Of a DNA stretch of 64,000 nt, positions 20,608 through 29,504 are shown one piece after another (positions within the stretch are counted from its first letter, which is position 1; each line of letters opens with the position of its first letter). Origin of the DNA: Micromonospora carbonacea (GTDB lineage Bacteria; Actinomycetota; Actinomycetes; Mycobacteriales; Micromonosporaceae); the NCBI RefSeq assembly GCF_014205165.1, contig NZ_JACHMZ010000001.1, forward strand, positions 7,050,501-7,114,500. Direction: 5' to 3'. The translations under genes and the position numbers were made by a program. The notes under the pieces are model-generated. The model did not search any database. It saw only the letters and a program-made list of their open reading frames with translations, and was not told where the DNA came from.

Positions 20608-20651
20608 GTGGAGCCCAGGGGACTCGAACCCCTAACCCCTGCCTTGCAAAG
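20608..20651 (-). repeat. attL-like tRNA-Ala 3' fragment
   Basis: 44 bases identical to 24294-24337: acceptor 3' strand, T arm, variable loop and part of the anticodon arm of tRNA-Ala(UGC), reverse strand. Beyond 20651 identity stops (GATCAAG versus GGCAGTG), so no functional tRNA is encoded here. Confidence 0.9.
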
Positions 20652-20878
20652 ATCAAGACTCTTGTCGGCCAGCGTCGGTGACTGCCGCTGGCCTGCTCGC
20701 CGTGTCGCCTCTCGTCGCCCCCGGACCGTGTCCGTCGGCGGGCTTGGCTGTACGAATGGCTGTACAGCCATCTTCCGACCCTGCGTTCCGGGCGGCCCAG
20801 TTGCATGCATTCGCCTGAGTTGCGGCCCATCGACAGGTGCCCTACGGCCCTGTCGCACGGGCGTCGTAGCCTCGGCCG
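20652..20878. other. Left arm of the island, no gene
   Basis: 227 bases between the left tRNA fragment and the HNH gene. It holds the TGGCTGTAC motifs and a perfect 16-bp palindrome (ATGGCTGTACAGCCAT, 20756-20771). No coding frame is supported. Confidence 0.5.
20745..20770. repeat. Paired TGGCTGTAC motifs, left end of island
   Basis: TGGCTGTAC at 20745-20753 and 20757-20765, with an inverted copy GTACAGCCA at 20762-20770. The same pair with the same 12-base period recurs at 24242-24262 near the right end. Short repeats flanking an att core on both sides are the usual form of tyrosine-recombinase arm sites. Confidence 0.6.
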
Positions 20879-21859
20879 GTGACCCTCGCCGATGTAACCC
20901 GTGCCAGTGTGCTTGCCGCGGTAGAAGAATTCGACCGGCTCGGCCGAGATGCCTTCCTCAAGTCGACCGGTTTTGGCAGGTCGCGAGCCTACTACCTCGA
21001 CTATCAGGGGAGCCTCTACGACTCGAAGGCGATCATCGGGTACGCACACGGCGTCAGCACTGGAACGGCTTGGGGTCCCGCTAACTTCAGCGGCGGCGAC
21101 AAGACAGTTGCCCAACGACTAGAAGCACTCGGCTTCATGGTCGCCTTCCTGCCGAATCCGGACTGGACTCGGGACGAAATCATTCTCGCGTGCGACCTCG
21201 TACTGACCAACGGTTGGCGACAGCTCGACGCCAACGACGAACGAGTACGAGCCCTATCAGAGCTACTGCAAAGCCCTGCTATCCACCGCGGTCGTCGGAA
21301 TCCAGACTTCCGCAACCCAGCCGGCGTCGCCCTGAAGACCTACAACATCGTGGCCGACAGCAGCAACGGCAACCAACTAGACAAGCTGGTACGCCAGGAG
21401 TTCCAGGATCAACCGACCGAGATGCAGGCGCTGGCTGCCCGTATCCGTGAGCTGCTTCGCGAAGAAGCCGAAGCCGAGCCAGTAAGCAACGATCCCGACC
21501 TCGACGAGATGTCGGCGCGCGAAGGCGGGGTCACCTTGCGGGCTCACCTTCGCCGAGAGCGCAACCCGAAGCTCCGACGCCAGAAGCTGGCCGACGCCAA
21601 ACGCCGCGGCGTCGCCATCGCCTGCGAGGTATGCGGATTCGACTTCCAACGCGTCTACGGCGACAGAGGACGCGACTACATCGAGTGCCACCACCGGACT
21701 CCACTGCACGTCTCCGGCGAGACCCACACCCGGCTCAGCGACCTCGCCTTGATCTGCTCGAACTGCCACCGGATGGCCCACCGCGGCAGCCCCTGGCTGA
21801 CGGTTGAACAGCTGAAGGCGCTGGTGGCCACGTCATCAGCATCTATAGGAACCGCCTAG
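20879..21859 (+). CDS. HNH endonuclease with ScoMcrA-like N-terminal head (putative type IV restriction)
   Basis: A 326-residue nuclease. Residues 1-85 (VLAAVEEFDRLGRDAFL, then SLYDSKAIIGYAHG and FSGGDKTVAQRLEALGF) match my recollection of the N-terminal head domain of ScoMcrA, a type IV enzyme that cuts modified DNA. Residues about 95-170 (NPDWTRDEIILACDLVL, LSELLQSPAIH, FRNPAGVALK) resemble a domain common before HNH cores. The HNH zinc finger is intact: CEVC (249-252), ECHHRTPL (His271/272) and CSNCHRMAH (Cys293/296). Start GTG 20879 without a Shine-Dalgarno. Codon use is less GC-biased than in neighbours. No sulfur-binding or SRA domain is obvious, so the modification read, if any, is unknown. 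Confidence 0.8.
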   Translation: MTLADVTRASVLAAVEEFDRLGRDAFLKSTGFGRSRAYYLDYQGSLYDSKAIIGYAHGVSTGTAWGPANFSGGDKTVAQRLEALGFMVAFLPNPDWTRDEIILACDLVLTNGWRQLDANDERVRALSELLQSPAIHRGRRNPDFRNPAGVALKTYNIVADSSNGNQLDKLVRQEFQDQPTEMQALAARIRELLREEAEAEPVSNDPDLDEMSAREGGVTLRAHLRRERNPKLRRQKLADAKRRGVAIACEVCGFDFQRVYGDRGRDYIECHHRTPLHVSGETHTRLSDLALICSNCHRMAHRGSPWLTVEQLKALVATSSASIGTA

Positions 21860-22029
21860 CCGCCTGCACCTGGCCCCGGAGCGGGCTGAACTCTTCGTCC
21901 CGAACGCCGATGTGGCGCACCATCGACTGCAAGCCGTTGCCTTCTGGTGCTGCTCAGGTGGCCATGGTGCACGGCCGGCCCCGGGCACCATCAACGACTG
22001 GCAACCGTTTCGCTGCCTCTGCGCTGCCC
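21860..22029. other. Stretch between the HNH gene and the CRISPR array
   Basis: 170 bases without a supported gene. If the array is transcribed leftward, as inferred from the repeat, this is its trailer side. Confidence 0.45.
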
Positions 22030-22484
22030 GGATCACCCCCGCATGCGCGGGGAACAGGACGGGATGCTCGACGAGCTGGCGCGCGATCTGGGATCACCCC
22101 CGCATGCGCGGGGAACAGCTGGGCCGGGCGGTGGCGGACACAGGCTGCTCCGGATCACCCCCGCATGCGCGGGGAACAGCAGGTGGCACTGACGTTGCGC
22201 TCCAGCATGTAGGGATCACGCCCGCATGCGCGGGGAACAGGACCTTCTGTGCCTTGCCGGTCCGCTTCGGGAGGGATCACCCCCGCATGCGCGGGGAACA
22301 GGCCAGCCCACGCGGCGACCATCGATCGAATGGCGGATCACCCCCGCATGCGCGGGGAACAGGACAGCTCGCCGTTGGACGGCGGCTCGGAGCGGGGATC
22401 ACCCCCGCATGCGCGGGGAACAGCTCGTCGACGGGACCGGCACGGTGATCTTCCAGGGATCACCCCCGCATGCGCGGGGAACAG
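22030..22484 (-). CRISPR. Type I-E-like CRISPR array, 8 repeats and 7 spacers, no cas genes
   Basis: Eight 28-bp repeats start at 22030, 22091, 22152, 22213, 22274, 22335, 22396 and 22457, with a constant 61-bp period and 33-bp spacers. The repeat starts GGATCACCCCCGC and ends GCGCGGGGAACAG, with a 6-bp stem CCCCGC/GCGGGG. Only the repeat at 22213 differs (G for C at position 8). Its reverse complement starts CTGTTCCCCGCG like E. coli-type I-E repeats, so transcription is probably right to left with the leader to the right of 22484. All spacers are unique. Cas proteins would have to act in trans. Confidence 0.96.
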
Positions 22485-22580
22485 ACTTCCTGACCTGGAC
22501 CGCTAAAGATCAACAGCGCCGATTTCATTCACTTGCCCGACCAAGATCCTCTCCGCCCGTGCCGCCCTGGTTGCTGGTGA
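22485..22580 (-). promoter_or_regulatory. Probable CRISPR leader
   Basis: The stretch right of the last repeat includes a comparatively AT-rich patch (CTAAAGATCAACAG, then ATTTCATTCACTTG, about 22503-22534). Its position matches the leader expected from repeat orientation. Promoter elements were not resolved. Confidence 0.45.
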
Positions 22581-22629
22581 CAAGGTACCGCCGACTCGCC
22601 GCGCTTGGCGCGCACCGCGCCCCCGCTGT

Positions 22630-22775
22630 TGCCATCCCGTCCGCCGCCGACCCACACACCGTGGAGCGGGCCAGGGCCAGGGTGACAAGGTGGAGCGCCC
22701 TACCGGACGAACGACCTTGTCGCCCTGGCCCTGGTCTGCTCGGCTCTGCCTGGGTCGGCGGTGGACGGGATGGCA
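22630..22775. repeat. Two-tier 146-bp imperfect inverted repeat
   Basis: Outer arms 22630-22653 and 22752-22775 pair at 23 of 24 positions. Inner arms 22671-22691 and 22714-22734 pair at 20 of 21 around a 22-base loop. The unpaired spacers are 17 bases on each side. No coding frame explains it. Confidence 0.85.
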
Positions 22776-23489
22776 TCCCACCCCAACCACCCACGACCGC
22801 AACCGTTCGGCAACTCCATCCCGGAGTCGTTGGGCCCCCGCCGGAGGCAGCCTTAACCCCAACCCCGCCCCTCACCCGCCGCCCCCTCTCCCACCTTCAC
22901 CTCTTCCCCACACCGGCCCGGGAGCGGCCAACGGTGTTCCGTTCGGCAACTCGCCCAGGCCGACCGTCGACCGGTCCGCGGTGAGGTTCACGAGGATGAA
23001 GAGCTCGACGGGAGAGATGTCGCGTGGTCCCGGTCAGTCCGGGACTCGTCACCGGTTCCTCACGGAACCAGGGGTGACGCGCGGGGCGGGGCGTGGTTTG
23101 CGGGCCGGCTGACTTTCCGCCCCGGCGCCGTAGGCGGCCGGGGCGGCGGCTCCGTAGGAGCCGGTTGCCGCGCCCCGGCCCGCGCCGCGCGGAGCGCCTT
23201 GATCTAGTACAGGCCAATTCGGCAACAGATCACAGGCAGCTCCGAGCCGACCAAGCCCAACACGACACTCACCTCGAACGTTCGCCCTCCGGATCGCCTC
23301 GCGCAGGTTCCGTTGGCCGCCTACTCGGCGCTCGGCTTGCCCTTGGCCATCTTCATCAACGAACGCTGCTCCGAGCGCTTAGTTCACCAGGCACTCCGGG
23401 CTCACGCCTCCCTTGCGCTCCTCACCGATCCCATACCACTCTGCCGGGACGACTTGTCCCGCTCGGGACGCCAGAGGTAGCATCGGGAC
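22776..23489. other. Gene-poor centre of the island
   Basis: About 700 bases without a convincing gene. Overlapping open frames occur in several frames, but none shows recognisable domains or a good start. It includes Pro-rich CCCC tracts (22850-22900), a hairpin cluster (23047-23163) and a stretch with mixed composition (23200-23480) that could be decayed coding sequence. Confidence 0.5.
23047..23163. repeat. Three consecutive hairpins
   Basis: Hairpin 1: 23047-23079, arms CGTCACCGGTTCC and GGAACC-AGG-GGTGACG. Hairpin 2: 23117-23146, ten-base arms CCGCCCCGGC/GCCGGGGCGG with a small inner GCC-GTAG-GC stem. Hairpin 3: 23147-23163, CGGCTCC-GTA-GGAGCCG. Hairpins 2 and 3 abut directly. They could be terminators or remnants of an origin or transfer site. 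Confidence 0.7.
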
Positions 23490-23852
23490 ATGGGCAAGCG
23501 CCAGCGTCGACGTGATCGACAGGAGACCCCCGAGACGACCGGCACGCCAGCACCCGAAGCGGGCCACTCGTTCACTGCCGGGCGCTACCGCTACGAGGTA
23601 ATCCCAACGCCGGACCTGCCCGAGCAGGAGCGGGCAGCGGCGGTCAGCAGGATCGCCGGCTTCGGAGCAGAACGCCTGCGGCTACTGAAGGAGCTAGAGC
23701 AGGTTGACGAGGCGCTACGGCCGCGCGTCCTGCACGCGGTAGCCGCCGGGGTTCCTTACCGGCGCATCGCGGAGTTGACCGGCTACTCCCGCTCGGCGAT
23801 CAGCCGCTGGGGCCAGCCCACCAACGGTGGTCACGAGGTGACAGCCACATAG
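23490..23852 (+). CDS. Small protein with C-terminal helix-turn-helix
   Basis: A 120-residue protein. The N-terminus is basic (MGKRQRRRDRQE), the middle is a charged helix (RLRLLKELEQVDEALRPRVL), and the C-terminal AAGVPYRRIAELTGYSRSAI looks like a sigma-region-4-type helix-turn-helix. It is likely DNA-binding and may be a regulator of the island; no named family is recognised. ATG 23490 has CGGGA just upstream. Similar small HTH proteins are common on actinomycete integrative elements. Confidence 0.65.
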   Translation: MGKRQRRRDRQETPETTGTPAPEAGHSFTAGRYRYEVIPTPDLPEQERAAAVSRIAGFGAERLRLLKELEQVDEALRPRVLHAVAAGVPYRRIAELTGYSRSAISRWGQPTNGGHEVTAT

Positions 23853-23916
23853 AGAAGTGGGGCCACGGCCGCTGCAACGGACGTGACCCCGTGACCGATT
23901 CGAAGGAGTCCAAGCC

Positions 23917-24105
23917 ATGTCGAATCAGCCGTCCACCATTCTGGTCGAGACCGAGCAGGGATGGCAGCCCTGGCTAGTGTGCACCGACTGCGCAGGCAAC
24001 GGCGGACGCAACGAGTGGGTGTTCGCGTCGCCGGAGACGGGAACCGAGATACTTGAGTGGATCCCCTGCCGATCGTGCCGGGCCATGGGAGGCCGTCGTC
24101 CCTGA
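23917..24105 (+). CDS. Small zinc-ribbon-like protein
   Basis: A 62-residue protein with two CxxC pairs, LVCTDCAGNGG and IPCRSCRAMGG, spaced like a DnaJ-type or ribbon zinc site. AAGGAG lies eight bases before ATG 23917. It probably forms a unit with the HTH gene 64 bases upstream. Function is unknown; small CxxC proteins of this kind recur on actinomycete plasmids and integrative elements. Confidence 0.65.
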   Translation: MSNQPSTILVETEQGWQPWLVCTDCAGNGGRNEWVFASPETGTEILEWIPCRSCRAMGGRRP

Positions 24106-24293
24106 CGACATCCAGGTTGAACGTCCCCGGTCCTGGCACAGACCATTCACCTGGACCGGGGATCCTGTCACCAGCGGAACGAGGTGCTTCGCTGCACGCA
24201 CGCCGGTCGACACGGGTTTGCCACTGGATGGGCGAGTCGCTTGGCTGTACAGATGGCTGTACTCGGAGTCGAGATCAACCGGTGTTCGTGCTG
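24106..24293. other. Right arm of the island, no gene
   Basis: 188 bases with the right-hand TGGCTGTAC pair and a GTCC/GGAC-rich inverted segment (24117-24162, GGTTGAACGTCCCCGGTCC and GGACCGGGGATCC) that can fold into a hairpin. An integrase gene would be expected here or at the left end, but none is present. Confidence 0.45.
24242..24262. repeat. Paired TGGCTGTAC motifs, right end of island
   Basis: TGGCTGTAC at 24242-24250 and 24254-24262, the same orientation and period as the left pair at 20745. The flanking bases GCTTGGCTGTAC are also shared. Confidence 0.6.
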
Positions 24294-24294
24294 G

Positions 24295-24367
24295 TGGAGC
24301 CCAGGGGACTCGAACCCCTAACCCCTGCCTTGCAAAGGCAGTGCTCTGCCAGTTGAGCTAGGGCCCC
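24295..24367 (-). tRNA. tRNA-Ala (anticodon TGC)
   Basis: Read on the minus strand: acceptor GGGGCCC pairs with GGGCTCC; D arm AGCTCAACTGGCAGAGC; anticodon loop CTTTGCAAG with TGC; T arm GGGGTTCGAGTCCCC; discriminator A. An encoded CCA follows at 24292-24294. Bases 24294-24337 are duplicated at 20608-20651, so this copy is the intact tRNA rebuilt at the island's right end. Confidence 0.97.
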
Positions 24368-25721: not shown

Positions 25722-28700
25722 CTAGTCCTGTTCGTCAGGCTCGTCGGCATTGCGAGCAATCGCCACGATAGTCACGCCGTCCGGGAGGTCCATCAGCTTG
25801 ACCCCCATTGTGTTCCGGTCACGCGTACGGCGTACAGGCTTCACCGGAGTCCGGATGACGCCACCGTTGCTCGTGATCGCGAACAGCTCGTCGTCCGGGT
25901 GGATCACCACAGCGCCGACCAGACCACCGCGGCGCTCGGTGATCTTCGCAGTCAGCACGCCCTTACCTCCCCGGCCCTGCACCGGGTATTCCTCGATCGG
26001 GGTACGTTTCGCGTATCCCCCGTTCGTGGCCACCAGAACGTCCAGCCCCTCGCGGACCACCTCCATGGCCAGCAGGACGTCGTCGTCGCTGAACCGCATG
26101 CCGATCACGCCCGACGTGGCCCGGCCCATCGGCCGCAGCGCCTCGTCCGTGGCGTTGAAGCGGATCGCCTGCGCGTTCTTCGACACCAGCAGCAGATCGT
26201 CGGACGGGGCGACGAGGGCAGCACCGACCAGCTCGTCCTCATCGCGCAGGTTGATCGCGATGACTCCGCCGGAACGGTTGGAGTCGAACTCCTCGAGCCG
26301 CGTCTTCTTCACCAGGCCGTTCTTCGTGGCCAGTACCAGGTAGGGGGCCACCTGGTAGTTCGGGATTTCGATGATCTGCGCGATCTGCTCGTCCGCTTGG
26401 AACGCGAGCAGATTGGCCACGTGTTGGCCCTTGGCTACCCTACTGGCTTCCGGAAGCTCGTACGCCTTGGCCCGGTACACCCGGCCCTTGTTCGTGAAGA
26501 ACAGGATCCAGTCGTGCGTCGAGCACACGAAGAAGTGGCTGACGATGTCGTCCTGCCGCAGCGTGGCCCCGCTGACGCCCTTGCCGCCGCGCCGCTGCGA
26601 GCGGTACAGGTCGACCTTCGTCCGCTTCGCGTATCCCGTCCGGGTGATCGTGACCACCACGTCCTCGCGGGCGATCAGGTCCTCCATCGAGACCTCGCCG
26701 TCGAACGGCACGATCTTCGTACGCCGCTCGTCGCCCCACTTCGCGACGATCTCGCCCAGCTCCTCCGAGACGATCCGCCGCTGCCGCTCCGGCTTGGCCA
26801 GGATGTCCTTCAGGTCGGCGATCTCCAGCTCCAGCTTCGCCAGGTCGTCGAGGATCCGCTGCCGCTCCAGGGCCGCCAGCCGGCGCAGCTGCATGTCCAG
26901 GATCGCGGTCGCCTGGATCTCGTCGATCTCCAGCAGCCGGATCAGGCCCTGCCGGGCGTCCTCCACCGTCGGCGACCGCCGGATCAGAGCGATCACCTCG
27001 TCCAGGGCGTCCAGCGCCTTGCTCAGACCGCGCAGGATGTGCGCCCGCTCCTCGGCCTTGCGCAGCCGGAACGCCGTCCGCCGCCGGATCACCTCGATCT
27101 GGTGCTCGACGTAGTAGCGCAGGAACTGGGCCAGGTTGAGCGTGCGCGGCACCCCGTCGACCAGCGCCAGCATGTTCGCGCCGAACGTCTCCTGGAGTTG
27201 GGTGTGCTTGTAGAGGTTGTTCAGCACCACCTTCGCGACCGCGTCGCGCTTGAGCACGAGCACGATCCGCATGCCCGTACGCCCGGAGGACTCGTCCCGG
27301 ATGTCGGCGATGCCGGCGAGCTTGCCCTCCTTGATCAGCTCGGCGATCCGCTCGGCCAGGTTGTCCGGGTTCACCTGGTAGGGCAGCTCGCTGACCACCA
27401 GCGCCGGGCGGCCCCGCTTGTCCTCCTCGACCTCCACCACGGCCCGCATCCGGATCGACCCGCGACCCGTGCGGTACGCGTCCTGGATCGCCTGGGTGCC
27501 CACGATCAGACCGTGGGTGGGGAAGTCCGGGCCCTTGACGATCTCGATGAGCGCGTCGAGGGTCGTCGCCTCGTCGACGTCCGGGTTCTCCAGGCACCAC
27601 TGCACCGCCGCGCCGATCTCGCGCAGGTTGTGCGGCGGGATCTTCGTGGCCATGCCGACCGCGATGCCCTCGGAGCCGTTGATCAGCAGGTTCGGGATCC
27701 GCGACGGCAGGATGGTGGGCTCCTTGGCCCGGCCGTCGTAGTTGTCCTGGAGGTCGACGGTGTCCTCGTCGATGTCCCGCAGCATCTCCATCGCCAGCGG
27801 GTCGAGCTTGCACTCGGTGTTGTGGCTGACGAAACCGTCGGAGACGAACGAGTGGTCGTCCGTGTCCACCCGGATGCTGTAGACCGGCTGCACCCCGGCG
27901 TCCGTGACGCTGGCCACCTCGGCGTAGTAGAACCGGCCGTCGACCAGCGGCTCGACCACGTCGAGCACCTCGCGCTCGGTGATCCGGGCCACGATCTCGT
28001 CGCGGTCCCGCTCCCAGCGCTCGATCCGGTCCACGTTGTGCCGGCGCAGCCAGTCCCGCTCGGTCCACCGGGTGGCGCCGTGCTCGCGGACGAAGTCGCC
28101 GACCAGCGGCACGTGGTCGCCGGAGAGGGCGGTGCTGCTCGCCGGCACCTGGGCCAGCTCCGACTCCAGCTTGGCCTGCTTGCGGCCGAGGAAGCCGACC
28201 TGCTGGGCGAAGATCCGGGCGTCGCGGCGGTTGGTCACCACGACCTTGATCTCGCCGTTGTCGTACCGGCACTGCCGGCTGATGACACCGAACTCCAGCA
28301 GTAGCTGCTGCACCTCACGGGCCAGCCGCTCGCTGCGGGTCGAGTACGAGACCTGGATGGTGTTGCGGGGCAGCAGCGAGGACGAGCCGTCCCCCTCGAA
28401 GAGCGCCTGGAGGAAGGCCCGCTTGATCGCGGCCGGCCCCCGCCAGACGAACTCCGGCACGAACTTCGCCGCACTCCGCGCCCCGACCAGCTCGCCGAGG
28501 ACACTCTCCCGCAGCGCGGAGAGGTTCTGGACATCGAGCTCGTGCAGCAGGCTGCCGGAGGCGATGGTGCGCTGGCTGACGTAGCGCGGGCCGCCGACGG
28601 CGAGGTCGTAGGCCGCGAGGACCCGGACGAAGAACTCGCGGTCGGTGTTGTTGAAGCCGGCCCGGCCCTCGGACACCCAGCCCTCGCTGACGAACGCGCC

Positions 28701-29504
28701 GGCGAGGACGGCCGCCTCGACGTGCTCCAGCATCGGGTAGCCGATCTCGTCCGGCACCGTCCGCTGGATGACCACCCGGTCGCCGGGGCCGATCTCGGCG
28801 AGCAGCTTCCACAGCAGGGTCGGCACGCCGGCCACGTCGACCAGGCAGAGGACCGGGTGGTTGTGGGTGCCGGTCAGCTCGTACCCCTCGCGGGTGCGCA
28901 GCCGCAGCGTCGGGTGCTCGCCGGAGTGGAAGAACTTGGAGGCCCGCACCAGGTCGCCGTTGCGGTCGCGGACCTTCAGCTCGATGTCGGTCTCGCTGCT
29001 CGGCGCGGCGTCGGGAACGATGTCACCGATCCGGACCGCACCATCGGCGGTACGAATACGAACATTTGCGGTTACACAATATCTCATGGCCGCAGCCGGG
29101 TCGTTTCCGGGCGAACCGAAGTTGCCGTTGCCGTCGACCAGCGGGTAGCGCAGCGACCAGGGCTGCGCCATCCGGACGAGCGCGTCGTAGATCGCCGAGT
29201 CGCCGTGCGGGTGGAACTGGCCCATCACGTCGCCGACGACCCGGGAGCACTTCACGTAGCCGCGGTCCGGCCGGTAGCCGGAGTCGAACATGGCGTAGAG
29301 GATCTTGCGGTGGACCGGCTTGAGCCCGTCCCGGACGTCCGGCAGCGCCCGCCCGACGATGACGCTCATGGCGTAGTCGAGGTAGGAGCGCTGCATCTCC
29401 ACCTCAAGGCCGACCGGCTCGATCCGGTCGTGCGCCACGACTGCGGCGGCGGGGGTCTCGGGGACCTCGGGCTCGCTCGGGGTGGACTCGGGGGAATCGG
29501 TCAC
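25722..29504 (-). CDS. gyrA: DNA gyrase subunit A with in-frame intein
   Basis: Breakage-reunion subunit of gyrase. The 1260-residue precursor holds a 420-residue intein (residues 143-562); the spliced protein would be 840 residues, a normal actinobacterial length. Catalytic Tyr142 is the last residue before the intein (AAMRY, then TECKL after splicing). The quinolone-resistance region [10 protein letters not shown] carries Ser103 and Asp107, the susceptible-type residues. The GyrA box QRRGGKG is present in the C-terminal DNA-wrapping domain. The start is GTG 29504 preceded by AAGGG. DnaA-box-like sequences lie in the gap to gyrB. Arg141 and Tyr142 use AGA and TAT codons, unusual here. Confidence 0.97.
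27819..29078 (-). other. GyrA intein with LAGLIDADG homing endonuclease
   Basis: 420 residues from Cys1 (TGT at 29076-29078) to the terminal His-Asn (Asn at 27819-27821); the +1 extein residue is Thr. Splicing blocks: block [22 protein letters not shown], trimmed here to its first 20 or so residues; block B GTHNHPVL with the conserved His; C-terminal block [15 protein letters not shown] and FVSHN. Between them lie two dodecapeptide-type motifs, [12 protein letters not shown] and [14 protein letters not shown], of a LAGLIDADG endonuclease. Insertion right after the catalytic Tyr is the same site as in mycobacterial GyrA inteins. Key splicing residues appear intact. Confidence 0.96.

Follow-up and report, generated by a model that had tools for sequence, protein, structure and literature searches.

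How does a CRISPR (clustered regularly interspaced short palindromic repeats) array with no cas genes beside it come to reside in a small island at a tRNA gene? The question is raised by a 3.7-kb island at a tRNA-Ala(TGC) gene of Micromonospora carbonacea, which we analyzed within a window of 64,000 nucleotides (bases 7,050,501-7,114,500 of a 7.53-Mb, single-contig genome; coordinates below are those of the window unless a locus is named). The closest named relatives of its proteins come from Micromonospora. The answer that we favor, and consider likely, is that the island is a decayed actinomycete integrative and conjugative element (AICE), that is, a cis-mobilizable element (CIME), that carries a captured CRISPR array. 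Codes beginning with L denote fetched loci and those beginning with G other genomes compared, and "own" refers to the M. carbonacea genome.

The insertion at tRNA-Ala(TGC) and its relatives

The island is bounded by a perfect 44-bp direct repeat (20608-20651 and 24294-24337, 44/44 positions identical, 3,686 bp from start to start), as described in the original prediction, which was made from the sequence alone; under uniform base composition, a rough assumption for GC-rich DNA, about 7e-18 such repeats would be expected by chance per window. The left copy (20608..20651, minus strand) is a displaced 3' part of tRNA-Ala(TGC) that starts at the anticodon loop and represents the left attachment remnant, and the right copy lies in the intact tRNA-Ala(TGC) gene (24292..24367, minus strand), the right attachment site; an Rfam scan gave two tRNAs and nothing else above the curated thresholds. 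Immediately inward of each tRNA copy stands a 24-bp repeat, GCTTGGCTGTACNNATGGCTGTAC (20742-20765 and 24239-24262), and the two copies look like putative integrase arm sites. They are parts of a left arm with repeats GGCTGTACNNATGGCTGTACAGCC (20652..20775), an end block of AICE-type elements that is found with 70-85% identity in the tRNA-Ala islands L064-L069 and also in modules away from tRNA genes, and of a right arm, likewise with repeats (24239..24293), found with 82-93% identity in L064-L068.

We searched 160 genomes of the genus, the own genome included, with a query in which the two host flanks were joined. Among the matches listed, only that in G089 extended over the full length of the query (95%), the rest, besides the window's own two pieces, reached the right part only, and G129 gave no match. 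The empty site in G089 is exact, with 95.4% identity running through the join over 3,819 columns, one intact tRNA and no island. The island is a true insertion that is absent from this close relative, and the empty tRNA-Ala site for which the original prediction had called exists.

The same tRNA-Ala site was surveyed in 61 genomes, 36 of them from the same genus besides the own genome, and 15 loci (L064-L078) were fetched because they matched beyond the bare tRNA. Six of these (L064-L069) contain the same tRNA fragment and left arm, with distances from the fragment to the intact tRNA of 13.6, 12.5, 7.7, 2.4, 2.5 and 1.9 kb, in that order, so that the length variation expected in the original prediction is present across genomes. 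In 19 further tRNA-Ala loci (L084-L102), no second fragment was found within the 3-6 kb covered; for one of them, from G009, a tRNA-Ala fragment lies on another contig.

The two longest islands, L064 and L065, are complete elements bounded by the same arms as the window island. From left to right, they contain cargo, a palindrome-plus-hairpin module, a regulator, a transfer protein, small genes, a Rep protein and an integrase, which is the layout of pSAM2-type AICEs; the regulator, the transfer protein and the Rep protein are presumably GntR-type, FtsK/TraB-like and RepSA-like, respectively. The tyrosine integrase (Pfam Phage_integrase and a SAM-like domain) ends just before the right arm, which in complete AICEs begins a few bases past the integrase stop codon (context seen in L102 and L064). 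In L227, too, each of the three core proteins (integrase, Rep-like and Tra-like) is matched, and the left and right arms are present. In L068, the integrase is reduced to its C-terminal end, in L067 to a weak trace (E 0.004), and these remnants look like stages of decay; L069 has no integrase match. The L275 integrase reads as two overlapping pieces.

The window island has the left arm, the module and the right arm in common with the complete AICEs, but none of the core genes: tblastn with the integrase, the Rep-like and the Tra-like protein of L065 gave no match in the island (E 0.01), and Pfam detected no integrase among the three open reading frames (ORFs) of the island, in agreement with the original prediction. 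Because complete AICE-type elements are found at the same tRNA site, the most plausible reading of the island is that of an AICE that has decayed and has no integrase left, that is, a CIME. An AICE-type element specific for tRNA-Ala(TGC) would have integrated, leaving the 3' part of the tRNA in two copies, and would then have lost its integrase, replication and transfer genes while both attachment sites and the arm repeats were kept.

A separate arrangement was seen in G128. Its island (L231, 3582-6895) comprises the fragment, the arms and a remnant of the integrase and terminates, about 17 kb short of the intact tRNA-Ala, in a partial copy of the tRNA, which suggests tandem accretion at this site.

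The CRISPR array and the mosaic beside it

The array (22030..22484, minus strand) is type I-E-like, as predicted, with eight repeats of 28 nt and seven spacers of 33 nt at a period of exactly 61 nt. It reads on the minus strand, with the leader region at its right end (22485..22630, minus strand; 92% identical to L229, 90% to L011, 85% to L014, and 71% over 110 bp to L018). Genome-wide, the repeat occurs 134 times (at most three mismatches) versus 0 for the reversed control. In the own regions fetched, 12 array groups have at least two repeats, and a similar leader, judged by eye, stands beside the first repeat in nine of them, the window's array included. The own genome has one Cse1 match and one complete type I-E cas set, with all eight genes recognized by Pfam (Cas3, Cse1, Cse2, Cas7, Cas5, Cas6e, Cas1 and Cas2). 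The type I-E cas genes that the original prediction had proposed to look for elsewhere in the genome are therefore there, together with arrays with the same leader, and the island array could be served in trans, in which case the host Cas set would process and employ it. Its seven spacers have none in common with the other own arrays read.

A repeat lies next to the leader. It begins with an imperfect, MITE-like (miniature inverted-repeat transposable element) palindrome of two 71-nt arms that are 80% complementary (22631..22776); the rest of this dispersed repeat (22777..22868) is common to array loci and AICE modules. There follow the AICE right module with a GC-rich hairpin block ending in CTTGATC (22869..23205) and, past the hairpin, further AICE sequence (23206..23274, 93% identical to AICE L065). 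The window module is 93% identical to L009 of the same genome.

We compared five consecutive window segments with four array-type loci, namely three arrays (L011 and L014 from the own genome, L229 from G089) and one leader remnant (L018), as well as with 12 AICE-type modules. The leader region (22485-22630) was matched in 4/4 array-type loci (71-92%) and in none of the modules. The palindrome was found in two of the array-type loci and in 11 of the modules (L079 in two pieces), the twelfth, L010, matching over 28 bp only. The next 92 bp were matched partially in all four array-type loci and were present in 11/12 modules. Beyond this point the pattern is reversed, segment 22869-23089 being present in 0/4 array-type loci and 10/12 modules and the hairpin block (23090-23205) in 0/4 and 11/12, with the single miss, L230, stopping at a contig end. 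For four own arrays outside this test (L012, L015, L016 and L017), the match to the window stops at about 22,554 and so covers no more than the leader proper. The complete span from leader to module end was detected in the window only, in one of the 160 genomes (three first-look candidates scored in each).

Since array loci alone match the leader side and modules alone match the sequence past the shared palindromic repeat, capture of the array through recombination at that repeat is probable, most likely between a copy next to the leader of a chromosomal array and a copy in an AICE module. The simplest reading would place the crossover within the dispersed repeat or at its left edge. The palindrome of the window is 98.6% identical to the AICE copy L009 versus 91% to the copy at the G089 array locus; it has many copies across the genus genomes, and in this dispersal as well as in its inverted-repeat structure it resembles a MITE. 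The own array L014 and the array locus of G089 are orthologous (95.3% over 6.8 kb), and the palindrome is present in G089 and missing in L014, so that it is evidently gained and lost at array flanks. With regard to a target-site duplication, the L014 junction has a short CATCCC repeat, which fits precise loss and deletion of the palindrome alike.

Some observations on arrays stand apart from this argument. In Streptomyces phage Eklok, a run of four degenerate I-E-like repeats separates two genes (L291, 659-853) and is possibly a phage mini-array, and 16 Streptomyces phage records, some of them duplicate entries, match the island array. In the own genome, a leader remnant without an array (L018, 8652-8823) adjoins tRNA-Phe. 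A general tendency of arrays to lie in tRNA islands, for which this remnant and an array at 458 kb near tRNA-Tyr had been the candidates, was considered and set aside, as no tRNA duplication was found at either place.

Weighing the explanations

Several points weigh against a decayed AICE with a captured array. The absence of the island from G089 could also mean clean loss. The palindrome could have reached the array flank and the AICE through independent insertions. Neither complete AICE, L064 or L065, gave a match to the small helix-turn-helix (HTH) and CxxC genes of the island, whose origin this reading does not account for. The own genome has no close L065-type integrase, the best match having 40% identity over part of its length, so that a helper would need to come from outside. 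Finally, no protospacer was found in the genus genomes, in viral contigs or among the phage and plasmid matches listed. For viral contigs, 0 of the 7 spacers had an exact 24-mer match; in searches against phages and plasmids, the matches listed (20 of the 41 records and 20 of the 388, respectively) look like matches to the repeat; and the 160 genus genomes gave no credible match. The concatenated spacers had a formal match (E <= 0.01) in 143 of these 160, the own genome included, and we treated the best non-self match, 84% over 44 bp (E 8e-6), as GC-rich noise.

The island might instead be an active satellite, an integrase-less element with immunity cargo that is regularly mobilized by incoming AICEs specific for the same tRNA. 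This we regard as unlikely, even though both arm sites are kept, unbroken integrases occur at tRNA-Ala beside similar arm sites in L064, L065, L102 and L227, and other short islands at this site have a weak integrase trace (L067) or none (L069). Regular mobilization is at odds with the lack of a second array-module fusion among the 160 genomes and of a cognate integrase in the own genome. Integrases that could serve as the proposed helper for the same tRNA thus exist in other genomes, with no close one in the own genome, and the compact transferable immunity island envisaged in the original prediction is not supported as an established class, the one fusion looking like a single capture. As a decayed AICE, the island would be movable only if an integrase with this specificity arrived from outside.

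We give still less credence to an array that is ancestral to the right module of the AICE family and was lost in the other sampled members. Such an origin would fit the occurrence of the palindrome and adjoining bases both beside array leaders (L011 and the G089 array locus) and in AICE modules; it is opposed by the absence of the leader match from all 12 modules, by the lack of CRISPR repeats in the other fetched loci that contain the left arm or the hairpin block, and by the restriction of the leader-to-module span, from the few candidates scored per genome, to the window. That the left 44 bp are merely an old tRNA duplication with content gathered by chance has nothing specific in its favor and can be dismissed, being refuted by the exact empty site in G089 and opposed by the same fragment and arm at other distances in 6 of the 15 mapped tRNA-Ala loci.

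Cargo, related modules and comparison with known systems

The accessory slot, the space between the left arm and the palindrome of the palindrome-plus-hairpin module, would in the window hold the array with its leader and an HNH protein of 326 aa (20879..21859, plus strand). This protein consists of a ScoMcrA-type head, a middle domain and an HNH domain, and the resemblance of its head, noted in the original prediction, is borne out by a match of residues 4-92 to the ScoMcrA head (5zmm; E 7e-14) and a PADLOC type IV match at residues 1-89. Pfam HNH lies at residues 249-302, residues 248-303 match the HNH region of EcoKMcrA, and PF26345 is precomputed for this protein. The part from residue 93 onward is conserved in distant bacteria; residues 93-236 had no PDB match (E 0.1, 42-row profile), and no SRA match was found in Pfam at E 0.1. 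Only about 155 residues separate the head from the HNH domain, and the sulfur-binding and SRA-like pair of ScoMcrA was not found there. In the accessible part of the ScoMcrA study, the head domain has no known function (PMC6224610). We infer from these similarities a putative nuclease with a ScoMcrA-type head.

Two small genes lie where they had been predicted. One encodes an HTH protein of 120 aa (23490..23852, plus strand; Pfam HTH_23), for which a homologue search returned 10 proteins, the five with an organism name all from actinomycetes. The other encodes a 62-aa protein with two CxxC motifs (23917..24105, plus strand), for which the search returned five proteins, one of them the window's own cluster, and no family was found in Pfam, PADLOC or NCBIfam.

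Cargo seen in the slot of related elements includes, among other genes, those for DarT and a partnering macro-domain protein (L064), ImmA/IrrE (L065), a type II restriction enzyme and its methyltransferase (L285) and an OLD/Gabija-like ATPase (L273). PADLOC at E 1e-5 returned 246 models over 64 cargo ORFs (the window HNH and 63 from 24 slots, one of which, L231, extends beyond a second attachment site) versus 47 models over 63 flank ORFs (a nonrandom subset, from the first-listed loci, of the 136 collected), with differing length cut-offs (100 and 120 aa) and related models inflating both tallies. When ten cargo proteins were scanned singly, six had a PADLOC match at 1e-8 and four had none. 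A Pfam tally of all cargo contained one BsuBI/PstI-type enzyme, probably that of L285, and transposases (Transposase_20 in 4/64). A slot rich in defense genes is supported by these counts, which are uncalibrated.

Module copies also occur away from tRNA-Ala. The L009 copy (about 6.62 Mb in the own genome) belongs to a separate 9.3-kb insertion that has a 41-bp direct repeat and for which G089 has the empty site; this copy suggests a module common to several element families. This island (L009, 6464-15795) has no recognized integrase and, by eye, contains ImmA/IrrE-like, AAA plus HNH (Septu-like), IS110-type, NUDIX and XRE genes. At L010 (7989-11570), an integrase gene beside tRNA-Arg is followed by two tandem left-arm blocks; G089 has the same tRNA and integrase and differs in the adjoining 1.5-2 kb slot. 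Copies of the left arm and hairpin module at non-tRNA-Ala sites (L079-L083 and L272-L290, except L275) can be divided according to their outer flanks into two groups, of which one has a conserved hairpin upstream. Elsewhere in the window, the gyrA ORF (25722-29504, 1,260 aa) appears, by eye, to contain an intein-like insert after the conserved AMRYC stretch, with the gyrase sequence resuming at HNTECKL.

More tentatively, conserved blocks in Micromonospora, the left arm and the palindrome-plus-hairpin module, might serve as recombination handles for the exchange of AICE defense cassettes, a leader-plus-array having been loaded in such a slot. If this is true, acquired immune memory became cargo of a tRNA-specific mobile element. 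The probable capture itself provides a concrete route, at the level of sequence, by which a CRISPR array can leave its chromosomal place, through fusion at a dispersed repeat beside the leader, to become cargo of an integrative element, and it indicates a defined slot in Micromonospora AICEs in which defense genes can be sought.

Compared with known systems, the island resembles AICEs of the pSAM2 type in its integration into the 3' part of a tRNA gene and its arm repeats (PMC3218068, in the part available). The integrase, RepSA-like and FtsK/TraB-like genes present within the same flanking blocks in L064 and L065 extend the likeness; unlike an AICE, the window island lacks all three and carries a CRISPR array. 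The available part of that survey notes CRISPR, with Cas components, for an ICE with a type IV secretion system and not for AICEs, and a search of titles and abstract starts found no description of an AICE with a CRISPR array. CIMEs have lost integration and transfer genes and kept attL and attR (PMC5704250), and the window island fits this definition; its cargo of a leader-plus-array and a type IV-like nuclease is distinct, and its mobilization in trans is putative. The array matches the arrays beside the own I-E cas operon in repeat, spacing and leader, and differs from type I-E arrays away from cas genes in lying within a tRNA island, fused to an AICE module. The HNH protein shares a head domain (4-92) and an HNH end with the type IV restriction enzyme ScoMcrA, but has 326 rather than 561 aa, and neither the sulfur-binding nor the SRA-like domain of ScoMcrA was matched by sequence (PMC6224610). 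The parts of the island are of known kinds, and its novelty, as far as our searches reach, lies in the capture route and in the combination.

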